From the NCBI GenBank assembly GCA_030057555.1, contig JASGUU010000044.1:124001-188000 (forward strand): a DNA stretch of 64,000 nt. The letters run 5' to 3'. The position numbers were made by a program, and so were the translations under genes. Position 1 is the first letter of the stretch; the number at the start of each line of letters is the position of its first letter. The stretch comes from Bacillota bacterium. Its GTDB lineage: Bacteria; Bacillota; Clostridia; Saccharofermentanales; Fastidiosipilaceae. Shown here in pieces: positions 11,159-56,130 of the stretch. Under the pieces are notes generated by a model. It made no database searches. It was given only the letters and a program-made list of their open reading frames with translations, and was not told the DNA's origin.

Positions 11159-13546
11159 TCATTCACCCTTGAGGGGCAGTGCCTCGATCTTCCAGATGTC
11201 ACGGACGTAGTCCTGGACGGTGCGATCCGAGCTGAAGCGTCCGCTCGAAGTAATGTTGATCCAGCATTTGCGCGCCCGGCCCAGACGGTCACGGTAGTCC
11301 TCGGCCATGCGGTCACGGACTTTGCGATAGTCGTCGAAGTCACCGAGCACATAGTAGGTGTCCGGAGGCTGCCAGGAGGACCCGGTCAGCAGGCTGGCAA
11401 CGAGGTCATTGAACATGCTCGAGCCATGGTCGGAGAGCAGGCCGTGGGTCAGCGCATCGACGACGCGCTTGAGGCCGGGAATGTGGTTGTACTGCCAGTT
11501 GGGGTTGTAGTAGGCGCGGGTGGCGGGCAGATCCTCGACGCGGACGCCGAAGATGTAGGCGTTTTCGAAGCCGACCTCTTCGACGATCTCGACGTTCGCA
11601 CCGTCATAGGTGCCGAGCGTCAGGGCGCCGTTCATCATCAGCTTCATGTTGCCGGTTCCGGAGGCCTCCATGCCCGCCGTGGAGATCTGCTGCGAGATGT
11701 CGGCGGCCGGGATGATGCGCTCGGCGTTGGAGACATTGTAGTTGGGGACGAAGACAACCTTCATCTTGTCACCGATCTCGGGATCGTTATTGACCAGTTT
11801 GGCGATCTCGTTGATGGCCTTGATCACGGCCTTCGCACGCATGTAGCCGGGTGCGGCTTTGGCACCAAAAATGAAGACGCGCGGCACGACATCGAGCGTC
11901 GGATCGTCCTTGATCCGGAAATAGAGGTCGAGGATGTAGAAGGCATTCAGGATCTGGCGCTTGTACTCGTGCAGGCGCTTGATCTGAACATCGAAGATCG
12001 CTTCGGGGTTGATCCTGATCCCCATGTTCTCCTCGACCCAGTCGGCGAAGGCGCGCTTGTTATGGTCCTTGATCTCGAGGCAGCGCCTGAGGATCGCCTC
12101 GTCGTCGGCGAGCGGCTTCAGGGTGGCAAGCTGGTCGAGATCGGTCACCCATTCCTCCGAACCCGTCAGCTCCGTGATCAGTCCGGCGAGCTTGGGATTG
12201 CAGACGCGGAGCCAGCGGCGCGGCGTCACGCCGTTGGTTTTGTTGCTGAAGCGCTCAGGCCAGATTTCATACCAGTCACGCAGGGTGTCGCGCTTGATGA
12301 TGTCCGTGTGCAGTGCCGCCACACCGTTAATCGACATCGCGGCATAGCAGGCCATCCAGGCCATCCGCACCTGTCCCGACCCGATCGGCGCCATGTAGTC
12401 GATGCGGTCCTGGCGCAGGCCCCGGCGCGACATTTCATCACGGAAACGGCGGTCGATCCACTGGACGATTTCGAGAATACGCGGGAAGAGGAACTGGAAG
12501 ATCGAGAGGTCCCAGCGCTCCAGAGCCTCGGCGAGGATGGTGTGGTTGGTATAGGCAAAGCACTGTGTCGTCACCGCCCAGGCCTGGTCCATGGACATGC
12601 CGTTCTCGTCGACCAGAATGCGCATCAGCTCCGGAATCGCAATGACCGGGTGGGTGTCGTTCAGCTGGAAGACGTTGTACTCCGCGAAGCGCGAGAGATC
12701 ATCGCCATGCATTTCCTTGAAATTGCGGATGACGAGCTTCAGCGTGGCGGAGACGAAGAAATACTGCTGCCGCACCCTGAGCACCTTCCCGTCATAGGAG
12801 GTGTCGTTGGGATAGAGCACCCGCCAGATGTCCTCGACGCGGTTGCGCTGTGTCACCGCATCGTCGAAGCGCTGCGAGTTGAACAGGTTGAAGTCGAAAT
12901 CTTCGGCAGGATCCGCACGCCAGAGCCGGAGCGTGTTGACATTATCCGTTCCATAGCCGGTGATGGGCATGTCAAAGGGCGTGGCGAAGACCGTCATGTC
13001 GGAATAGTAGACCGGTACCTTGAGGTCGTCGCGGCGGACGAGGAAGGGATAGCCGTCCTCCATCCAGCTGTCCGGATGCTCCTTCTGGAAGCCGTTGTCG
13101 AAGGTCTGCTTAAACAGGCCGTAGCGATAGAGCAGGCCGTAGCCCATGACGGGATAGTTCATGGACGCAGCACTGTCGAGGAAGCAGGCCGCCAGGCGAC
13201 CGAGGCCGCCGTTGCCGAGTCCCGCGTCATACTCCTCTTCTAGAATGACATCGAGATCGCGGCCGTATTCCGCCATCACTTCCTTTACCGTGTCATAGAG
13301 ATCCAGATTGATGAGATTGTTGAGCGTTGCCCGGCCCATCAGAAACTCGGCGGAGAGATAATGCTGCGTGCGCACAGGGCGATAAAGCTCACGGGTCTTT
13401 TCCCAGTTTTCGGCGATCGCCTCCACGATAACATCCGAGAGGGCCGTCCAGTAGCTGCGGTTCGTCGCATGCTCCGGCATGCGGCCGGCCTCGGCACGGA
13501 TATGCGATTCAAGCGAGCGGCGAATATTTTCTTTGGTTACGTACAT
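11159..13546 (-). CDS. glgP: glycogen/alpha-glucan phosphorylase
   Basis: The enzyme releases glucose-1-phosphate from alpha-1,4-glucans using inorganic phosphate and pyridoxal phosphate; the product is handled by pgm. The 795-residue length is typical. The active-site segment EASGTGNMKLMMNGALT (near 630, with the PLP lysine) and the glycine loop EYDAGLGNGGLGRLAACF (near 105) are intact, as are YSAEFLMGR (near 63) and KRLHEYKRQ (near 525). GAGGTG precedes the ATG at 13546, and a TATAAT on the minus strand at 13588-13583 suggests the promoter. No other glycogen genes are adjacent, so storage glycogen versus maltodextrin as substrate is open. Confidence 0.96.
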   Translation of the reverse strand: MYVTKENIRRSLESHIRAEAGRMPEHATNRSYWTALSDVIVEAIAENWEKTRELYRPVRTQHYLSAEFLMGRATLNNLINLDLYDTVKEVMAEYGRDLDVILEEEYDAGLGNGGLGRLAACFLDSAASMNYPVMGYGLLYRYGLFKQTFDNGFQKEHPDSWMEDGYPFLVRRDDLKVPVYYSDMTVFATPFDMPITGYGTDNVNTLRLWRADPAEDFDFNLFNSQRFDDAVTQRNRVEDIWRVLYPNDTSYDGKVLRVRQQYFFVSATLKLVIRNFKEMHGDDLSRFAEYNVFQLNDTHPVIAIPELMRILVDENGMSMDQAWAVTTQCFAYTNHTILAEALERWDLSIFQFLFPRILEIVQWIDRRFRDEMSRRGLRQDRIDYMAPIGSGQVRMAWMACYAAMSINGVAALHTDIIKRDTLRDWYEIWPERFSNKTNGVTPRRWLRVCNPKLAGLITELTGSEEWVTDLDQLATLKPLADDEAILRRCLEIKDHNKRAFADWVEENMGIRINPEAIFDVQIKRLHEYKRQILNAFYILDLYFRIKDDPTLDVVPRVFIFGAKAAPGYMRAKAVIKAINEIAKLVNNDPEIGDKMKVVFVPNYNVSNAERIIPAADISQQISTAGMEASGTGNMKLMMNGALTLGTYDGANVEIVEEVGFENAYIFGVRVEDLPATRAYYNPNWQYNHIPGLKRVVDALTHGLLSDHGSSMFNDLVASLLTGSSWQPPDTYYVLGDFDDYRKVRDRMAEDYRDRLGRARKCWINITSSGRFSSDRTVQDYVRDIWKIEALPLKGE

Positions 13547-13925
13547 GGATTCACCTCATAGTCGTTGAAGAAACTAGGAACGATTATACCTGAAGCATCC
13601 GCCACCTCTACCGTATCGTGTGAAAAAGTACGCAAATAAGGGCTTTCGCCAGTTTGCCCGTCCATTTCAGGCAGCAAAACCAGTCGCCGCTTTACCGATA
13701 GGCCAGGCGGCTGAAAGGGAATGCGCGGGAGCCTGCTCTGCTGCTGCCGAAATGAGCCGTGTAGTAGTGGCTCATGGTACGCTCGTTACCGGTAACAGGG
13801 GTCTGCAGGCGAATGCCATCTGTTCGTCGTCCAGCAGAAAGGGGGCCCGTCAGGAATATCGGGAAGCTTGTGAGCATGCCTGGAGCACGGGTGGCAGGGG
13901 GAGAAAGCAGCTTGCGAACTTCTGA
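13547..13925. other. non-coding spacer upstream of glgP
   Basis: This contains the glgP leader and putative -10 (13583-13588). No coding signal, RNA gene or clear hairpin is recognised in the rest. It leads directly into the 71-bp repeat array. Confidence 0.4.
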
Positions 13926-14270
13926 TGGTCAAAACGAGGAGTAATCCAAATAGTGTTTTGGAAAACTCGCCATCCTGACCACAAAAGGGCGGTTTCTGGT
14001 CAAAACGAAGAGTAATCCAAAAAAAGATTTGGAAAACTCGCCATCCTGACCACAAGGGGCCGTTTCTGGTCAAAACGAGGAGTAATCCAAAAAAAGATTT
14101 GGAAAACTCGCCATCTTGACCACGAAGGGGCCATTTCTGGTCAAAACGAAGAGTAATCCAAAAAAAGATTTGGATTACTCGCTATCTTGACCACAAAGGG
14201 GCCATTTCTGGTCAAAACGAAGAGTAATCCAAAAAAAGATTTGGATTACTCGCTATCTTGACCACAAAGA
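13926..14270. repeat. five tandem copies of a 71-bp palindromic repeat, locus 1
   Basis: Unit starts are at 13926, 13997, 14067, 14138 and 14209, a 70-71 bp period. Each unit is a 56-bp imperfect palindrome plus a conserved 15-bp linker (ACAAAGGGGCCATTT-like). The outer arms are TGGTCAA and TTGACCA. The inner arms are GAGTAATCCAAA and TTTGGATTACTC around an A-rich loop, separated from the outer arms by an unpaired 5-6 nt segment. Units 1-3 carry GGAAAACTC in the right inner arm, giving a symmetric two-base mismatch; units 4-5 are perfectly paired. The same family, in the opposite orientation, occurs at 55974-56130. The array is A+T-richer than its surroundings. It encodes no protein and shows no T-run typical of terminators. 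Confidence 0.95.
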
Positions 14271-14596
14271 GGTGCGCGCTGCGTAACGACACGCCGCTAG
14301 ACGGGATTGCTTGAAGCTTACGGCATCAGAGCAACAGAACCTGGATTACTTTACAGCCTCCTTGAAAGTGCCAGGTCATGCCTGTCATCCTCGTCGCTCG
14401 CTATCCTATTCCTCTCACATTCACATTCCGGCCGTTTGTGAGGCTGGCCGCTACGCGGGCAATCGGAGAAGTGATCTTCCACATGCCTGCACGCAAGCTG
14501 CGCAGGCACTTCGGTGTTTCAGGTATTTAGGAAGGCTCGTAAAAGGTTTTGCTCGTCCCGACTGGTAAGACGTCCATCCGCCGCGGAAAAAAGCTC
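14271..14596. other. non-coding spacer between repeat array and tRNA promoter
   Basis: No gene, RNA or repeat unit is recognised. A short GGATTACT string at about 14343 echoes the core of the adjacent 71-bp repeat, but without the rest of the unit. Confidence 0.35.
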
Positions 14597-14679: not shown

Positions 14680-14756
14680 GGGCCTTTAGCTCAGTTGGTT
14701 AGAGCATCCGGCTCATAACCGGTCGGTCCCGGGTTCAAGTCCCTGAAGGCCCACCA
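14680..14756 (+). tRNA. tRNA with CAT anticodon (probably tRNA-Ile2, or elongator tRNA-Met)
   Basis: Acceptor arms GGGCCTT (14680-14686) and AAGGCCC (14746-14752) pair; the anticodon loop is CTCATAA, and discriminator A plus CCA are encoded. The 1-72 pair is G-C, which rules out the initiator. The start TTTAGCTCAGTTGGTTAGAGCA and the GGCTCATAACC anticodon arm resemble Firmicutes tRNA-Ile2, whose C34 is changed to lysidine by TilS to read AUA. Elongator Met cannot be excluded from sequence alone. Confidence 0.9.
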
Positions 14757-15012: not shown

Positions 15013-15289
15013 AGACGCCAAAGCGTTGATCGAGACGAGTAGAGCTGTTGTCGCCGCACAGAGAGTCGGGATGCTGGGAAACGATCGGCTGACAGTGGAT
15101 TCGAATGGACTCGGGAGCCTGCTGCCGAAGACCTCCGGTTTGTAAGCAGCGGCGGATTAACCGCCCGTTACCAGCGGTTATCGTATGTTGGTACGATGCT
15201 GAGCGGATCGCCGTGGCGATCAATTTGGGTGGCACCGCAGGAGAAGCATGCACTCCTGTCCCTTATAACCGGGACAGGAGTGTTTTTTT
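15013..15289 (+). promoter_or_regulatory. T-box riboswitch, tryptophan-specific
   Basis: The leader carries the invariant T-box AATTTGGGTGGCACCGC (15222-15238), the GAGTAGAGCTG/AGAGAGTCGGGATGCTGGGA elements of stem I, and a terminator hairpin at 15251-15289. The likely specifier codon is TGG (Trp) at 15106-15108 in the context GAATGGAC. The T-box variable base in TGGCACC is C, which pairs with discriminator G73 of tRNA-Trp, an independent match to the specifier. Uncharged tRNA-Trp is expected to stabilise the antiterminator and turn on trpXYZ, which starts 117 bp downstream. T-box control of trpXYZ transporters is established in other Firmicutes. Confidence 0.93.
15251..15289 (+). terminator. 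T-box attenuator terminator
   Basis: CACTCCTGTCCC (15251-15262) pairs perfectly with GGGACAGGAGTG (15271-15282) over an 8-nt loop, followed by seven T. It is the regulated terminator of the T-box leader. Confidence 0.95.
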
Positions 15290-15405: not shown

Positions 15406-16512
15406 ATGAAACGGAAGATTCGTTATGGCAGACTGCCGCAGTTTGCCCGTGCACTCGCACTCGCGCTCACGGCCTCTCTCCTGCTCGCGTCCTGCCAGCA
15501 GACAGCTGCGACGACCACCACACAGGAGAAAAGCAGCACAGATTCCGCTGCCACCACTGCCGCAGGCAAAAACACGGAAAACACGGAAAGCAAGGCCGCA
15601 CCCGCCGACGACGAAGTGAAGCGCATCGGCGTGGTCCAGTTCGCTCAGCACGCCTCGCTCGACAACTGCTATTACGGCCTGCTCGAGGGGCTGAAGGAAC
15701 ACGGCTACGTCGAAGGGGAAAATCTCGAAGTCGACTACCAGAACGCCAATGCCGATGGCGGACTCAACAACACCATCTGCCAGAACTTCGTCAGCCGTGG
15801 CTACGACCTCATCGTCGGCATCGCGACCCCGTCGGCGATGGCGGCCTACAACGCCGCCCGTGATGAGGACATCCCGGTGGTCTTCTCGGCGGTCACCGAT
15901 CCCATTGAGGCCCAGCTGCAGAACGCCGACGGCACAAATGTCAAGGGCGTCACCGGAACCAGTGACGTTCTGCCAATCGACGAGCAGCTGCAGATGATCC
16001 GCGCCTTCCAGCCCGACGCGAAAACACTCGGCATCCTCTACAGCACCAGCGAGACCAGCTCCATCGCCTCGGTCCGTCTCTATGAGGAGAAGGCCGCTGC
16101 TCACGGCTTCACGCTGGTTGCCGAGGGTGTCAGCGAATCCGCCAACGTCCCCGCTGCGGCGCTGAAAATCGTGAACGAAGTCGATGCCCTCACCAACATT
16201 CTCGATAACATGATCGTCCAGAACATGCCCGTCATCGTGGAGCGCGCCAAAGAAGCCGGCCTCCCCTACTACGGTTCCGAGGAAGAACAGGTCGCCCGCG
16301 GCTGCCTCGCCACCCAGGGGCTCGACTACCTCGCCCTGGGAGCCCAGACCGGCGCCATGGCCGCCAGGATCCTCAATGGCGAGGCCGCCGAGAGCATCCC
16401 GATCAGCCAGATTGAAAAGGCCAGCGGCTTCTACAACAGCACCGTGATGGCGGAACTCGGCCTCGAATTGCCGGCGGACTTCGCCGACATGAAGGATCTC
16501 GCGAAACCCTGA
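15406..16512 (+). CDS. trpX: tryptophan ABC transporter, substrate-binding lipoprotein
   Basis: This 368-residue lipoprotein of the ABC_sub_bind family (PF04392) has a signal peptide ending in the lipobox LLLASC with Cys30 as lipidation site. A Ser/Thr/Ala/Lys-rich linker (31-70) precedes the two-lobed periplasmic-binding fold beginning at RIGVVQFAQHASLDN. The GGAGGAAG site lies 5-6 bp before the ATG. It is the first gene of trpXYZ, and the Trp-specific T-box upstream is the main argument for tryptophan as ligand, since the protein family also includes other aromatic-compound binders. It would sit on the outer face of the cytoplasmic membrane. Confidence 0.9.
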   Translation: MKRKIRYGRLPQFARALALALTASLLLASCQQTAATTTTQEKSSTDSAATTAAGKNTENTESKAAPADDEVKRIGVVQFAQHASLDNCYYGLLEGLKEHGYVEGENLEVDYQNANADGGLNNTICQNFVSRGYDLIVGIATPSAMAAYNAARDEDIPVVFSAVTDPIEAQLQNADGTNVKGVTGTSDVLPIDEQLQMIRAFQPDAKTLGILYSTSETSSIASVRLYEEKAAAHGFTLVAEGVSESANVPAAALKIVNEVDALTNILDNMIVQNMPVIVERAKEAGLPYYGSEEEQVARGCLATQGLDYLALGAQTGAMAARILNGEAAESIPISQIEKASGFYNSTVMAELGLELPADFADMKDLAKP

Positions 16513-16514
16513 CC

Positions 16515-17426
16515 ATGGAACAGTTTGTACGTATTCTCATTGATATCGGCGAACAGGGACTGATCTTTTCCATCCTCGCACTCGGCCTGCTGATCAGCTA
16601 CCGCATCCTCAATACGCCCGATCTCACCGTCGACGGCAGCTTCCCGCTCGGAGCTGCCGTCAGCGCGGCTCTGCTGACCCGCGGCGCCAACCCCTGGCTA
16701 GCCCTCGGCGCCAGCCTGCTGGCCGGAGCCGTCGCCGGTCTCACGACCGGCCTGCTCAACGTCAAGCTGCGCATCACCGCCCTGCTCTCCGGCATCATCG
16801 TGATGACCATGCTCTATTCTCTGAATCTCGGCATCGCGGGAACGGCCAACGTCGGTCTCTTCAACAGCCGCAATCTTTTCAGCGAGGCGCCGGCCGACTG
16901 GATTCCCGCCCGCCTCGGCCCCTACCGCATCCGTACCATGGTTGTCGCCGCCATCATTGTCCTGGCGGTCAAGCTGCTGCTCGATCTCTATCTCGCGACG
17001 CGCTCGGGACTCCTGCTGCGGGCGACCGGCGACAACCAGCAGGTCACCGTCGCCCTCGGCCGTGATCCCGGGCTCGTGACCATCCTCGGTCTCACGCTCG
17101 CCAACAGTCTGGTCTCCCTGGCAGGTGGTCTGCTGGCCCAGCAGCAGGGCTTTTTTGAGATCTCGATGGGTACCGGACAGATGGTCAACGGCCTCGCCTC
17201 CGTCATCATCGGAACCGCCCTCTTCGGCCGTATCCGCCGTCTGCGCCTGACCACCGTCGCCATCTTCGGCTCCATTATCTTCAAGGGTCTGCTGACCATT
17301 GCCATCAACCTGGGTCTGAGCGCGAACTACATGCGCCTGATGCAGGGCCTGCTCTTCCTGATCATACTCGTCAGCTCGAATCTCAGTGACAAGGAGGCGC
17401 GCCATGCTACGGCTTCATCACGTTGA
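16515..17426 (+). CDS. trpY: tryptophan ABC transporter permease
   Basis: This 303-residue integral membrane protein of the branched-chain-type permease family (BPD_transp_2) has about eight hydrophobic segments, from GLIFSILALGLLISYRI (near 15) to LLFLIILVSS (near 280). The segments TPDLTVDGSFPLGAAVSAAL (near 34) and ATGDNQQVTVALGRDPG, the latter near the ATPase-coupling loop, are characteristic of the TrpY group. It begins 2 bp after trpX and overlaps trpZ by 23 bp. Confidence 0.9.
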   Translation: MEQFVRILIDIGEQGLIFSILALGLLISYRILNTPDLTVDGSFPLGAAVSAALLTRGANPWLALGASLLAGAVAGLTTGLLNVKLRITALLSGIIVMTMLYSLNLGIAGTANVGLFNSRNLFSEAPADWIPARLGPYRIRTMVVAAIIVLAVKLLLDLYLATRSGLLLRATGDNQQVTVALGRDPGLVTILGLTLANSLVSLAGGLLAQQQGFFEISMGTGQMVNGLASVIIGTALFGRIRRLRLTTVAIFGSIIFKGLLTIAINLGLSANYMRLMQGLLFLIILVSSNLSDKEARHATASSR

Positions 17427-18177
17427 CAAGGTTTATTTCGGCGGCACAGTCAACGAAAACTCCCTCTTTCGCGGCTTTGATCTCGAGGTTGAGAGAGGTT
17501 CCTTCGTCTCCATCGTAGGTTCGAACGGCTCCGGCAAAACCAGCCTTCTGAACCTCATCTGCGGCACCCTCGCTCCGGATGCCGGCCAGATCACGCTCGA
17601 CGGTCAGGACATCACCCGCTGGCCCGAGTACCGCCGCGCCCGGCGCATCAGCCGCGTCTTTCAGGATCCGGCGCTGGGCTCCTGCCAGAACCTCACGGTC
17701 TTTGAGAATCTCTCCCTGGCCGCCCGACGAACCCAGAGCTACAATCTCCGCCGCGGCGTCACGGAGCGCGACCGCGCCCGCTTCGGCGAACTGCTCGCCA
17801 GCCTCGACATGGGCCTCGAGCATCGCCTTGACCAGGTCACCGGCACTTTGTCGGGCGGTCAGCGCCAGGCCCTCGCCCTGCTGATGACGACCATGAACAC
17901 CCCCGACCTGCTGATCCTCGACGAACACACCGCCGCCCTCGACCCGAAGAGTTCGCAGCGCATCATGGCTCTGACCGACGAAATCATCAAGCGCCACCGG
18001 CTCACCACCCTGATGGTCACGCACAACCTGCGCTTTGCCCTCGAATATGGCGATCGCCTGCTGATGATGCACGAGGGACATCTGCTGCGCGACGACCGCG
18101 GCAGTGCAAAGGAGGCTCTGGTTCTCGACGATCTCCTTGATCAATTCAACCAAATCTCGATTGAATACGGGAACTAA
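17404..18177 (+). CDS. trpZ: tryptophan ABC transporter ATP-binding protein
   Basis: This 257-residue ABC ATPase energises TrpXY. It has Walker A GSNGSGKT (39-46), the Q-loop in RVFQDPALGS, signature LSGGQRQ (about 149-155), Walker B LLILDEHTAALDP (about 169) and the H-switch MVTHN. The ATG at 17404 was chosen because AAGGAGG lies ideally upstream of it, within the end of trpY; an in-frame ATG 18 bp earlier lacks such a site. Last gene of the operon. Confidence 0.93.
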   Translation: MLRLHHVDKVYFGGTVNENSLFRGFDLEVERGSFVSIVGSNGSGKTSLLNLICGTLAPDAGQITLDGQDITRWPEYRRARRISRVFQDPALGSCQNLTVFENLSLAARRTQSYNLRRGVTERDRARFGELLASLDMGLEHRLDQVTGTLSGGQRQALALLMTTMNTPDLLILDEHTAALDPKSSQRIMALTDEIIKRHRLTTLMVTHNLRFALEYGDRLLMMHEGHLLRDDRGSAKEALVLDDLLDQFNQISIEYGN

Positions 18178-36863: not shown

Positions 36864-39800
36864 TTATTTCACGGATATGTTAACCGCACTTGTTACCACT
36901 GTCCCGCTCGCGTCTTTGATCGCAACACAGACTTGATAGGCATCCGATGTCGTAGGTATCCAGCTGAAAGTGTTACCTGGCGCATAATCGCGCAGGATCA
37001 CCCTGGCCCCATTGGAGTGAACAACATAGAACTGATACTGATACGGCGCTGAGCCCCCTTCTCCTCTGGCTGCCAGCGCTATTGTTTCGCCTGTTGTGTA
37101 TTCCGGCTTGGTACCTGCCCGGAAGACTGCAACCTCCAACGTCTCAACCAGTGGATTAACTGTAACGGTCTTTTCCTGATTGACAGTCTGCCCGGCAGCG
37201 TCCTTAATATTTACACCTGCAAGGTACGTATCAGGAGTCCTGGGCGTCCAGTTGAAAGTGTTACTAAGCGCATAATCGCGCAGGATCACCCTGGCCCCAT
37301 TGGAGCGAATAACATAGAACTGATACTGATACGGCGCTGTGCCTCCTTCTCCTCTGGCTGCCATAGCTACTGTTTCGCCTGCCGTGTATTCCGACTTGGT
37401 ACCTGTCCGGAAGACTGCAACCTCAAGCGTCTCAACCAGTGGATTAACTGTAACAGTCTTTTCCTGATTGACAGTCTGCCCGGCAGCGTCCTTAATATTT
37501 ACACCTACCTGGTACGTATCAGGAGTCCTGGGGGTCCAGTTGTAAGTGTTACCAAGCGCATAATCGCGCAGGATCACCCTGGCCTCATTTGAGCGAATAA
37601 CATAGAACTGATACTGATACGGCGCTGTGCCCCCTTCTCCTCTGGCTGCCAGAGCTACTGTTTCGCCTGCCGTGTATTCCGACTTGGTACCTGCCCGGAA
37701 GACTGCAACCTCAAGCGTCTCAACCAGTGGCTGATTAACTGTAACGGTCTTTTCCTGATTGACAGTCTGTCCGGCGGCGTCTTCAACATTAACACCTACC
37801 TGGTACGTATCAGGAGTCCTGGGAGTCCAGTTGTAAGTGTTGCCAAGCGCATAATCGCGCAGGATTACCCTCGCCCCATTGGAGCGAACAACATAGAACT
37901 GATACTGATACGGCGCTGTGCCCCCTTCTCCTCTGGCTGCCAGCGCTATTGTTTCGCCTGCCGTGTATTCCGACTTGGTACCTGCCCGGAAGACTGCAAC
38001 CTCAAGCGTCTCAACCAGAGGCTGATTAACTGTAACGGTCTTCTCCTGATTGACAGTCTGCCCGGCGGCGTCTTCAACATTAACACCTACCTGGTACGTA
38101 TCAGGAGTCCCAGGCGTCCAGTTGTAAGTGTTACCAAGCTCATAATCGCGCAGGATCACCCTGGCCCCATTGGAGCGAACAACATAGAACTGATAGCGAT
38201 AGGGTGCCTCGCCGCCCTCAGCTCGTGCAGCCAGCGCTATTGTTTCGCCTGCCGTGTATTCCGACTTGGTACCTGCCCGGAAGACTGCAATGGAACACGG
38301 ATTGACCGGCCCCTCCAGCACGATGGTTCGCTCTTCTGTGACGACCTCACCCTCGGAATTCCTAACTCTGACGCCTACAGTGTATGTGTCTGGTGTGTAG
38401 GGTTTCCACGAGAAGCTGTTCGCCTCATCGTAGCTTCTGATGGTAAACGTGTTTCCATTGGAGCGAATGCCGTAGAACTCGTATTCAAACGCCTCACCAC
38501 CAAAAGCATCGGCCTCCAGCTCGATCGTGTCGCCCTGAACATATACAGAATTGTCTGCCGGCTGGAAATACATGATTTCCAGCGGATACGCGACCCAGAT
38601 CGCAGTAAGTACAGTATCCTCATTCACGACGAAATTTGAGTAAAGCGGATACTCTACGCCTGATGTCTCCTCCCGCCAGCCGGAAAGAATATACCCTCCT
38701 CTTGCGACGTAGTACGGATCTGGAGTCCAATAATTGAACCCAGGCGGAAGCTGATACGTCATCGGAACTTCCCCCCACCAGTACCCGCCGGCCAGATCAA
38801 TGGATACTGTGACAGGCTCTCCCCAGATTGCTGTGAAAAGCATGTCTTCATAAACATCAGTGCTTTGTCCAGGCGAATATTCTACGTTTGAAGCATCCAG
38901 CCAGCCGTAAAGGACATAGCCCTCTTTTAAAGCTCTGTCCCACCACGGCAGGGTAAATCCTTGCCCCGGCGCAACCTGTTTTGTCATGTCACCATATGTC
39001 CATTCCCCGCCGGCCAGATCATAAGATACGGTGACAGGCTCTACCCAAATCGCGGTGAAAAGTATGTCTTCATGAACTTCAATCGAATCGTAAGGCTGAT
39101 GATCTATGCCATAACTGTCTCTCCAAACGCTAAGTACATAACCCTCTTTTGCAATCGAATCCCGGAAAGGTATCGTGTATTCAGATCCTTTGGGCAAATC
39201 TATCGCTTTAGAGCCATACACCCATTCCCCGCCGGCTAGATCAAAAGATACGGTGACAGACTCTACCCAAATCGCGGTGAAAAGCATGTCTTCATGAACT
39301 TCAATCCATTGGCCAGGCGAATATTCTTCGTTTGAAGCATCCAGCCAGCCGGAAAAGAAATACCCTTCTCTTCTAACCCTGTCTTCATCTGGCAGCCAAA
39401 TCTCTGCCCCCTGCGCATGCTGACCTGTGTGATCAGAATATGTCCATTCTCCACCGGCCAGATCAAAAGATACGGTGACAGCTTCTACCCAGATCGCGGT
39501 GAAAAGCATGTCTTCATGGACGTCAATCCATTGGCCAGGCGAATATTCTTCGTTTGAAGCATCCAGCCAGCCAGAAAGGATATACCCCTCTCTTCTAACG
39601 GTGCCTTTACCTGGCAGCCAAAATTCTGCCCCCAGCGCAAGCTGCTCTGTGTAATTATAATCTGTCCATTCTCCACCTGCCAGATCAAAAGATACGGTGA
39701 CAGGTTCTACCCAGATCGCGGTGAAAAGCATGTCTTCATGAACTTCAATCCATTGGCCAGGCGAATATTCTACGTTTGAAGCATCCAGCCAACCGGAAAG

Positions 39801-41903
39801 GACATAGCCCTCTTTTGAAACTCCGTCCCTACCTGGCAGGGAGTAGTCTCCTTTTGCAATAACAGTTGTCAGGTCCTCATAGATCCATTCGCCACCGACC
39901 AGATCAAAAGATACGGTGACAGGTTCTACCCAGATCGCGGTGAAAAGCATGTCTTCATTAACTCGAATCCCTTTGCCAGGCGAATATATCTCGTTCGAAG
40001 CATCCAGCCAGCCGGAAAGGATGTACCCCTCTCTTCTAACGGCGTATTCAGATGGCAGAAGCCAATTTGCCCCCGGCGCAAACTGCTCTGTCATGTCACC
40101 ATATGTCCATTCCCCGCCGGCCAGATCAAAAGATACGGTGACAGGTTCTACCCAGATCGCGGTGAAAAGCATGTCTTCATGAACTTCAATTCTTTCGCCA
40201 GGCGAATATATCTCGTTTGAAGCATCCAGCCAGCCGGAAATGATGTACCCCTCTCTTCTAACGTCGGATTTAGATGGCAGCCAATACTCTGCTCCCGGCG
40301 CAAGCTGCTCTGACTGATCACCATAATCTGGATTCCATTCCCCGCCGGCCAGATTATAAGATATGGTGACAGGTTCTACCCAAATCGCGGTGAAAAGCAT
40401 GTCTTCATGAACTTCAATCCATTGGCCAGGCCAATACATCTCGTTAGAAGCATCCAGCCAGCCGGAAATGATGTACCCCTCTCTTCTAACCCTGGATTCA
40501 TATGGCAGCTGATACTCTTCTCCCGGCGCAACCTGCTCTGTCCAGTCACCACCTGTCCATTCTCCACCGGCCAGATCAAAAGATACGGTGACAGGTTCTA
40601 CCCAGATCGCGGTGAAAAGCATGTCTTCATGAACTTCAATCACTTGGCCAGGCGAATATATCTCGTTCGAAGCATCCAGCCAGCCGGAAAGGATATACCC
40701 CTCTCTTCTAACGTAGGATTTATATGGCAGCTGATAATATGCTCCCGGCGCAAACTGCTCTGTCTCGTCACCAAATATCCATTCCCCACCTGCCAGATCA
40801 AAAGATACGGTGACAGCTTCTACCCAGATAGCGGTGAAAAGCATGTCTTCATGAACTTCAATCGATTGGCCAGGCGAATATATCTCGTTCGAAGCATCCA
40901 GCCAGCCGGAAATGACATACCCCTCTCTTCTAACGTCGGATTTTGATGGCAGCCAAAATTCTGCCCCCAGCGCATGCTGCCCTGTGTGATCATAATATGT
41001 CCATTCTCCGCCGGCCAGATCAAAAGATACGGTGACAGGTTCTACCCAGATCGCCGTAAAAACAACATCCTCATACACGTCGACCCCTTCATAAGGCTGA
41101 TACTCTACGCCATAGCTGTCTCGCCAAGCGCGAAGTGCATAGCCCTCTTTTGAAACAGCGTACCTACCAGGCAGAAAAACGCATTGTCCGGGCAGCACAG
41201 AAATCGTCGGGTTGTAATCAGGATCCCAAACTCCTCCAGCAGTGTCATATGTAATCGTGACAGATTCTGTATTGTTAGCGGTACGTATAGCATTCTCATT
41301 CACTGCAATACTTTCGCCGGGCTGATACTCTGTTTCCGTGTTATCGGCCAAACTGTCCGGCGAATAAGCTTCTCTGTGGTCGCTTTCGGCATCCTCGAGG
41401 CAGTTTACGGAACCCTCGAAAAGCTCACCGGACGGATCTCCAGTCTCCGGGTTTAATTCGCCACCGTATCCATCAAAGCTTGGGGCTGCATCGTTCTCCG
41501 CTTGGGGCTCCGACTGACTTTCAGAAGGATATGCTGTATCAGTCGGCTCCGGCTCTGTTGGAGCAGGCTCCTCTGTCTGCTCAATCGTCTCGGTGCTTTC
41601 TAATACTGGTATGCTTTCCGTCGGTTCAAATGACGGTGTTTCCGAGCATCCGGATTCAACAGGCATGTTCTCGGCAATGCCATGAGTGCCTGCTTCGTCA
41701 ACAGACACGACATCAGAAATCGGGGATTCAATTGCTTCCTGAGAGTCTGGCTCCCCCCAAGTTTCCCCGGAAATGTCATCATTCACAGCAGGCCTTTCAA
41801 AGGCTCTCACTTCCGCACCTGCACCATGCACGGTCAAGTTGCCGACCAGTACAGCCAGTACTAGCAGACAAGCAGTTGTCTTTTTCAACATAATCCTCTT
41901 CAT
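36864..41903 (-). CDS. large secreted protein with 12 InlB-type B repeats and 6 Ig-like YYY-type repeats
   Basis: This 1,679-residue predicted exoprotein starts at an ATG with GAGGGG 6-7 bp upstream and has a signal peptide (about 1-30, hydrophobic core ACLLVLAVLVGNLTV). An acidic Ser/Thr/Pro/Glu-rich stalk (about 40-210) precedes twelve 72-75-residue repeats of the Listeria-Bacteroides/InlB B-repeat type (VTVSFDLAGGEW ... REGY.LSGWLDASN ... VHEDMLFTAIW). Six repeats of about 94 residues follow (AVFRAGTKSEYTAGET ... PYQYQFYVV ... NTYNWTP-TPDTYQVGV), resembling triple-tyrosine/Ig-like domains. The protein ends NISVK with no LPXTG, SLH or membrane anchor, so attachment is unclear. The DNA is A+T-richer than the core genome. 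Decayed copies of one transposase flank it. Adhesion is a reasonable guess only. Confidence 0.88.
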   Translation of the reverse strand: MKRIMLKKTTACLLVLAVLVGNLTVHGAGAEVRAFERPAVNDDISGETWGEPDSQEAIESPISDVVSVDEAGTHGIAENMPVESGCSETPSFEPTESIPVLESTETIEQTEEPAPTEPEPTDTAYPSESQSEPQAENDAAPSFDGYGGELNPETGDPSGELFEGSVNCLEDAESDHREAYSPDSLADNTETEYQPGESIAVNENAIRTANNTESVTITYDTAGGVWDPDYNPTISVLPGQCVFLPGRYAVSKEGYALRAWRDSYGVEYQPYEGVDVYEDVVFTAIWVEPVTVSFDLAGGEWTYYDHTGQHALGAEFWLPSKSDVRREGYVISGWLDASNEIYSPGQSIEVHEDMLFTAIWVEAVTVSFDLAGGEWIFGDETEQFAPGAYYQLPYKSYVRREGYILSGWLDASNEIYSPGQVIEVHEDMLFTAIWVEPVTVSFDLAGGEWTGGDWTEQVAPGEEYQLPYESRVRREGYIISGWLDASNEMYWPGQWIEVHEDMLFTAIWVEPVTISYNLAGGEWNPDYGDQSEQLAPGAEYWLPSKSDVRREGYIISGWLDASNEIYSPGERIEVHEDMLFTAIWVEPVTVSFDLAGGEWTYGDMTEQFAPGANWLLPSEYAVRREGYILSGWLDASNEIYSPGKGIRVNEDMLFTAIWVEPVTVSFDLVGGEWIYEDLTTVIAKGDYSLPGRDGVSKEGYVLSGWLDASNVEYSPGQWIEVHEDMLFTAIWVEPVTVSFDLAGGEWTDYNYTEQLALGAEFWLPGKGTVRREGYILSGWLDASNEEYSPGQWIDVHEDMLFTAIWVEAVTVSFDLAGGEWTYSDHTGQHAQGAEIWLPDEDRVRREGYFFSGWLDASNEEYSPGQWIEVHEDMLFTAIWVESVTVSFDLAGGEWVYGSKAIDLPKGSEYTIPFRDSIAKEGYVLSVWRDSYGIDHQPYDSIEVHEDILFTAIWVEPVTVSYDLAGGEWTYGDMTKQVAPGQGFTLPWWDRALKEGYVLYGWLDASNVEYSPGQSTDVYEDMLFTAIWGEPVTVSIDLAGGYWWGEVPMTYQLPPGFNYWTPDPYYVARGGYILSGWREETSGVEYPLYSNFVVNEDTVLTAIWVAYPLEIMYFQPADNSVYVQGDTIELEADAFGGEAFEYEFYGIRSNGNTFTIRSYDEANSFSWKPYTPDTYTVGVRVRNSEGEVVTEERTIVLEGPVNPCSIAVFRAGTKSEYTAGETIALAARAEGGEAPYRYQFYVVRSNGARVILRDYELGNTYNWTPGTPDTYQVGVNVEDAAGQTVNQEKTVTVNQPLVETLEVAVFRAGTKSEYTAGETIALAARGEGGTAPYQYQFYVVRSNGARVILRDYALGNTYNWTPRTPDTYQVGVNVEDAAGQTVNQEKTVTVNQPLVETLEVAVFRAGTKSEYTAGETVALAARGEGGTAPYQYQFYVIRSNEARVILRDYALGNTYNWTPRTPDTYQVGVNIKDAAGQTVNQEKTVTVNPLVETLEVAVFRTGTKSEYTAGETVAMAARGEGGTAPYQYQFYVIRSNGARVILRDYALSNTFNWTPRTPDTYLAGVNIKDAAGQTVNQEKTVTVNPLVETLEVAVFRAGTKPEYTTGETIALAARGEGGSAPYQYQFYVVHSNGARVILRDYAPGNTFSWIPTTSDAYQVCVAIKDASGTVVTSAVNISVK
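36867..38580 (-). repeat. six tandem ~285-bp in-frame repeats (Ig/YYY-like)
   Basis: These repeats encode the C-terminal 570 residues of the large exoprotein. Copies 2-5 are nearly identical at the DNA level (for example TTCCTGATTGACAGTCTG recurs in each), so recent duplication or gene conversion is likely. The first copy is the most diverged. Confidence 0.85.
38580..41261 (-). repeat. twelve tandem ~220-bp in-frame repeats (B-repeat)
   Basis: Each encodes one InlB-type B repeat. The stretch coding for EVHEDMLFTAIWVEPVTVSFDLAGG is almost invariant, while the central part of each unit varies, a pattern of recombination between copies combined with divergence of exposed loops. Copies 1, 10 and 12 (RDSYG or REETSG instead of LDASN) are older variants at the ends. 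Confidence 0.85.
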
Positions 41904-55920: not shown

Positions 55921-55973
55921 TATCAACTGCCGATGATCCTGACACCACAATGGCTGACGAATGCCGGGCGTTC

Positions 55974-56130
55974 TGGCCAGGATAGCGAGTTTTCCAAATG
56001 GAAATTTGGATTACTCCCCGTCTTGACCATTTCAGGCCCTTTTCTGGTCAGGATAGCGAGTTTTCCAAATGGAAATTTGGATTACTCCTCGTCTTGACCA
56101 TTTCAGGCCCTTTTCTGGTCAGGACGTCCC
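55974..56130. repeat. 71-bp palindromic repeat, locus 2 (two copies plus a partial third)
   Basis: Units start at 55974, 56045 and 56116 (the last is truncated after about 12 bp), a 71-bp period. Outer arms are TGGTCA and TTGACCA; inner arms GAGTTTTCCAAA and TTTGGATTACTC around a 6-nt loop, with a two-base symmetric mismatch. The linker TTTCAGGCCCTTTTC is the reverse complement relative of the locus 1 linker, so locus 2 is inverted with respect to 13926-14270. The repeat lies between lysC and the deacetylase-like gene, both of which end towards it. Confidence 0.93.

Follow-up and report, generated by a model that had tools for sequence, protein, structure and literature searches.

A BOX-like MITE family with a variable middle array of 56-nt hairpins in a Bacillota genome

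The BOX elements of Streptococcus pneumoniae and S. suis are built as boxA–boxBn–boxC, and the boxA/C and boxE/F elements of S. suis are two families that share boxB (PMC3049150). MITEs such as Nezha, Correia and RUP are dispersed, non-coding sequences of less than 1 kb that have terminal inverted repeats (TIRs) and target duplications and occur nested. MIRU and similar VNTR sequences are found at numerous sites between genes and consist of tandem units, about 50–100 bp long, whose copy number varies. REP and BIME sequences, with their transposase RAYT, are dispersed intergenic palindromes, some of them in tandem, that fold as single strands; REPs have a length of 20–40 nt (PMC3733652). Here we analyse five tandem palindromes in a 64,000-nucleotide stretch of DNA (the window) from a Bacillota genome (G000; 2.9 Mb, 90 contigs, 96% complete), and find that they are the variable middle of a small transposon-like element. 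The element is a BOX-like MITE and represents a new MITE family; it is ordinary in kind, being a known type of genomic parasite and not a new system, and uncommon in build. We found no earlier description of it in the open-licence literature, outside which one may exist.

The element resembles BOX in that its end modules enclose internal modules in tandem, which vary in number and each fold alone, and in its TIRs, target duplications, nested insertions and tens to more than 100 copies per genome; the boxB module common to two end pairs in S. suis is comparable to the copies found here inside a second MITE (see below). It differs in the size of its modules (85, 71 and ~310 bp, whereas both boxA and boxC measure around 50 nt; PMC3049150), in its host, which belongs to an unrelated Bacillota lineage, in the rewriting of the internal stems between species and in that the parent insertion sequence was not found. 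The comparison of BOX sequences with the window covered the BOX-A primer sequence, which has no match there with up to three mismatches. All of the properties of Nezha, Correia and RUP given above are shared by the element, which is set apart from them by a hairpin that is conserved in structure and repeated in tandem a variable number of times, and by a large right module without an RNA folding signal. The likeness to REP and BIME sequences lies in dispersed intergenic palindromes, some in tandem, with single-strand folding; however, the units here are 56 nt long, their carrier is bounded by TIRs and no RAYT was found. The many intergenic loci with tandem units in variable copy number recall MIRU and other VNTR sequences, but here the unit is a palindrome carried within a transposable element. 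An integron attC array was rejected by inspection: the outer arms TGGTCAA/TTGACCA and GTAGCAA/TTTGCTAC lack RYYYAAC/GTTRRRY boxes.

The preliminary description of this locus had claimed five tandem copies with a 70–71-bp period, and this is borne out both by TRF, which finds five head-to-tail units with that period at 13926–14269 (score 548, 93% matches), and by shuffling, as the 25-bp arm occurs seven times in the window and in none of 100 shuffles. Each unit consists of a 56-nt palindrome and a 15-nt linker (Table 1). The arms do come in two versions, as had been noted: the 3′ arm reads GGAAAACTC in units 1–3 and GGATTACTC in units 4 and 5. The perfect symmetry ascribed to two units applies to the GAGTAATCC/GGATTACTC segment, in which the arm pair of units 4 and 5 matches, and not to a 6 × 6 segment (AACGAA/GCTATC) that is asymmetric in nearly all copies. 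Linkers are conserved among units and among loci, hence there are no non-repeated spacers and the array is indeed unlike CRISPR. It lies between a reverse-strand gene at 11159–13546, which from its sequence reads like glycogen phosphorylase, and a tRNA gene at 14680 (open reading frame list and tRNA matches). A second array in the window, of 2.2 copies on the opposite strand, is located at 55971–56124; a third unit in it is truncated after TGGTCAGGAC at 56116–56126, and models of the left and right modules detect no element end modules or terminal repeats with it.

Table 1 Features of the element and of the second hairpin array in the window. The strand listed for units 1–5 of the first array is that on which G·U pairs form.
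Feature	Position	Strand	Remarks
Whole non-autonomous element (left module, five units, right module)	13841..14579	+	Flank conservation and HMM matches
Left terminal inverted repeat	13841..13865	+	GGGGGCCCGTCAGGAATATCGGGAA; consensus GGGGTGCACGTCAAGAATGTCGGGAA
Left module, ~85 bp	13841..13925	+	Inner 60 bp conserved at 33–35 of 39 other loci
Unit 1	13926..13996	−	56-nt hairpin and 15-nt linker
Unit 2	13997..14066	−	
Unit 3	14067..14137	−	
Unit 4	14138..14208	−	Matching arm pair
Unit 5	14209..14264	−	Hairpin only; right module in place of last linker
Right module, ~310 bp	14265..14579	+	HMM match 14253–14578
Right terminal inverted repeat	14556..14579	−	Decayed in window: TCCCGACTGGTAAGACGTCCATCC; consensus TCCCGACAAATATGACGTGCACCC
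Second array, hairpin unit 1	55974..56029	+	No element modules around array
Second array, hairpin unit 2	56045..56100	+	

Other features of the window include a T-box leader (15017–15266) that precedes an ABC-transporter-like gene set (15406–18177), the products of which read like a substrate-binding protein, a permease and an ATPase. Tandem repeats of 291 bp (36959–38290; 4.6 copies, 92%) and of 222 bp (38784–41062; 10.3 copies, 79%) probably belong to one or more genes for repetitive proteins.

The array is present over the extent first given for it (13926–14270), but it is merely the middle of a longer repeated element of ~740 bp that comprises a left module, n hairpin units and a right module. 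With the window copy as the query, the flank conserved among copies spans about −99 to +655 from the array start, and the sequence outside is unique. The left-module HMM matches 13837–13924 (E = 7 × 10−22) and the right-module HMM has its match with E = 1.6 × 10−87. Both modules are common to most array loci, and terminal inverted repeats (GGGGTGCACGTCA...) are present on both ends of most element copies, with GGGGTGCACGTCAAGAATGTCGGGAA as the left and TCCCGACAAATATGACGTGCACCCC as the right consensus. Alignment folds of the right module show no RNA-structure signal on either strand compared with column shuffles (z = −1.85 to +0.03), and a structured RNA in this part is not supported.

A search of G000 with the unit returned more than 130 unit matches at about 41 places, and copies traced via the end repeat bring the total to about 54 element loci; each of these counts is a lower bound, and some arrays may have been collapsed in length, because the assembly breaks at arrays (contigs C10, C17, C26, C27, C44, C51 and C66 end inside or near them, several within a few hundred bases). 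The repeats are thus a dispersed family, as had been proposed, extending far beyond the two places in the window and without a match to a named repeat. The 35 complete copies are 271–771 bp in length, carry 0–7 units each (mode 3) and lack a transposase gene. Three genome-wide pattern matches were discarded as chance, as there are no repeats at these places. At one locus (L065; G000:C44:1-5359), an array that faces a contig end is interrupted after GATTTGG by CGTGCGCCAGTTCGGTGCAAGGG..., and the contig ends soon after; the interrupting sequence begins like a group II intron and has no Rfam match at the gathering score.

Several kinds of marks point to transposition. Flanks match over 7–9 bases in 10 of 28 copies compared with 5.5% of shuffled left/right pairs (score of at least 7), although five of the ten matches are not independent because all are at one site (CAAAATGG). 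Target duplications of 8–9 bp occur at a third of sites, with independent examples in CAGCGTCA (L066), ACGCGCACG (L114) and AAATACTGC (L117). Many copies sit at an identical site inside another repeat (left flank TTCGACAAAATG, right flank AAAATGGAACC). This outer repeat is a second MITE with its own TIR (TACACGTCCGGCACCC) and 6-bp duplications (CTGGAC, GTGGAC, TCTCAG and CTCAAA); because these ends and duplications surround a shared internal site, the second MITE that carries the element has itself spread. That the composite copies moved as a single unit is suggested by their common internal junction together with the duplications outside. Some copies of the second MITE have internal deletions (L053, L057, L068, L069, L075 and L086).

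The sister species (G001) is the only other genome of the genus. It has the element with a diverged unit (75–84% identical) and the 71-bp period kept, and its complete copies contain 0–8 units. Unit identity between arrays is 86% within G000, 80% within G001 and 70% between the two, and many neighbouring proteins are 85–96% identical. Insertion positions are largely lineage-specific. Some arrays are flanked by shared neighbour genes in both species; a close look at one such locus (L088 and L107) places the elements in different intergenic spaces of the two species, and the spacers do not align to give a precise empty site because the intergenic sequence is too diverged. No insertion shared base for base between G000 and G001 could be demonstrated. 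The proposal of a MITE-like mobile hairpin is therefore supported by terminal inverted repeats, target duplications and insertions that are nested and lineage-specific.

No DNA matches were found in 36 further relatives. Among 188 genomes of the order that were searched, weak model matches came from one genome of another family (G016), in which tandem 56-nt hairpins occur at about ten places, dispersed, with a period of 70–80 and without shared flanks. These arrays have no end modules, as is also the case for a few arrays of G001. The outer arms in G016 are GTAGCA/TGCTAC, and the core (AGTTTTCCAAA) is the same as in the units of G000 and G001; on the basis of this short core, the G016 arrays are likely to be homologous to those of the two sister species. 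A single 58-nt hairpin (CTGCTCAGAATTTTGAGGTATGC...) in G064, of the same genus as G016 (L128, 1500–1557), is perhaps a further relative. A class-wide model search gave only isolated hairpins beyond the genus, and these were treated as chance.

Hairpin length is exactly 56 nt in all of the units used, and the inner stem in G001 exists in three complementary versions (TCCAAA/TTTGGA, TGGCAA/TTGCCA and TACAAA/TTTGTA). For 46 units from the two species, 85.2% of cells pair compared with at most 50.6% when the partners are slid, and the covariation score is 0.245 (0.156 shuffled). Once G016 is included, both partners change in 18 of 25 pairs and the score reaches 0.385 (0.167 after shuffling, no more than 0.127 after sliding); since the units share descent, the shuffled values cannot be read as probabilities, and the slid control is more telling. 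The pair changes on both sides, together with the 56-nt arrays in a distant genome with rewritten outer stems, indicate that folding is maintained. Mismatches on the array strand are mostly A·C (A·C:G·T of 428:71 in G000 and 318:81 in G001), which means G·U on the opposite strand; for 117 of 124 units in G000 and 95 of 120 units in G001, it is this opposite strand that folds better. The bias fits a minus-strand RNA or single-stranded DNA, a reading that is only suggestive because the G·U preference is absent in G016 (22 versus 19) and the small TACAAA class of G001 leans slightly the opposite way. Over the element, Rfam 15 has no match at the gathering score. The idea of a structured RNA thus fits the hairpin unit, by covariation and strand bias, and is not supported for the right module.

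Complementary arm triplets (unit positions 17–19 and 38–40) are not enriched, with 30 seen and 35.9 expected in G000 and 4 and 5.5 in G001. The two arm versions assort freely, and symmetric units therefore need no mechanism by which one arm is copied onto the other; the earlier suggestion of such copying is not supported.

No insertion sequence with the TIR of the element was found in the G000 assembly, in which contig ends fall at several copies. All 13 of the extra TIR places fetched proved to be array elements or an element end, and so no autonomous partner was found in this genome. As candidate parents, IS256 (PF00872) and ISL3 (PF01610) are both absent from G000, and no matching TIR surrounds the intact DDE_Tnp_1 (PF01609) genes found; PF01797 has no match there. 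A phage or plasmid as the vehicle was rejected for want of a match.

Mobility might instead reside in the hairpin itself, moving as a single strand through a REP-associated Y1 (HUH) transposase, with the modules acquired later. The hairpins fold single-stranded with a strand preference, and both the G016 arrays, dispersed without shared flanks, and the module-free array at 56 kb in the window are what such movement could leave. The sole Y1 gene of G001 also has hairpin arrays on both sides (L169, G001:C163; 910–1185 and 2080–2410), which differ in their stems (GAGTTGTGTCAG with period 70, ATTGCCC with period 61) and are apparently further classes of the 56-nt hairpin. That gene, however, has decayed and its sequence resembles an ordinary IS200 transposase, and tandem hairpins are missing from all 29 of the other Y1 loci retrieved from the order; given these loci, we take the arrays beside it as a coincidence in an array-rich genome and not as proof. 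Y1_Tnp is absent from both G000 and G016, most G000 arrays are enclosed by defined TIRs and target duplications, and 56 nt exceeds the REP length of 20–40 nt (PMC3733652). The early suggestion of a REP-like sequence with a tyrosine transposase accordingly finds no support, and this origin is distinctly improbable. A host function, with the arrays kept as structured RNAs (small RNAs or 3′-UTR hairpins) or as landing sites for host factors, would explain the compensatory changes and fixed length across genera, and crude calling of open reading frames places 13 elements between converging genes and 6 between diverging ones. It is nevertheless improbable in view of the largely lineage-specific positions, the 0 to 8 units per copy, the right module without RNA structure, the lack of an Rfam family at the gathering score and the absence of any promoter-like site when this region of the window was compared with consensus motifs.

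Array length varies, units are more alike within arrays than between them (identity 0.904 versus 0.863) and an arm segment is symmetric in some units, all of which would also be seen in a neutral satellite, shaped without selection by hairpin-promoted slippage and arm-to-arm template switching (quasi-palindrome correction). Such switching is at odds with the lack of enrichment of complementary triplets reported above; moreover, the asymmetric 6 × 6 segment has hardly ever been symmetrised, and inner and outer stems covary, which makes a purely neutral origin quite unlikely. Long dyads of fixed 56-bp length with conserved outer 7-mers could, as duplex DNA, be bound by a dimeric protein of the nucleoid or partition type. 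Yet from one species to another the outer and inner arms are freely replaced in complementary blocks, unlike a sequence-specific site, and the two half-sites are systematically unlike in the 6-nt segment; we regard binding of this kind as very improbable.

The element has end repeats and, at part of its sites, target duplications; it is dispersed and nested, its n varies, and some copies travel inside a second MITE. We put at roughly 80% the probability that the array represents the central modules of a BOX-built MITE, which looks like a parasite and less like a regulatory system of the host. A DDE-type transposase that has since been lost, or that falls in assembly gaps, would have moved the element in trans via its end repeats, and n would change by slippage or unequal crossing over between near-identical 71-bp units. 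Selection may act on the unit in its folded, single-stranded form, most likely as an RNA of the strand that is opposite to the array, and a hairpin RNA could stabilise or insulate transcripts. Because 56 nt are kept in two families while the stems are rewritten with compensatory changes, the hairpin may be an independent genetic unit that predates its carriers, and some factor may recognise it as folded RNA or single-stranded DNA and so multiply or maintain it in MITEs, in the second MITE and in free arrays; we offer this tentatively and consider it rather unlikely.

These results suggest that the BOX design has arisen in a Bacillota lineage unrelated to the streptococci, in which case it would be a recurrent build of small bacterial transposons. 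The more interesting question is why fold and length persist in the hairpin module even as the stems are rewritten. With about 54 loci, two species and several stem classes, the family provides many internal replicates for studying the reason that hairpin arrays are carried by transposons and a possible role of the hairpins as RNA.
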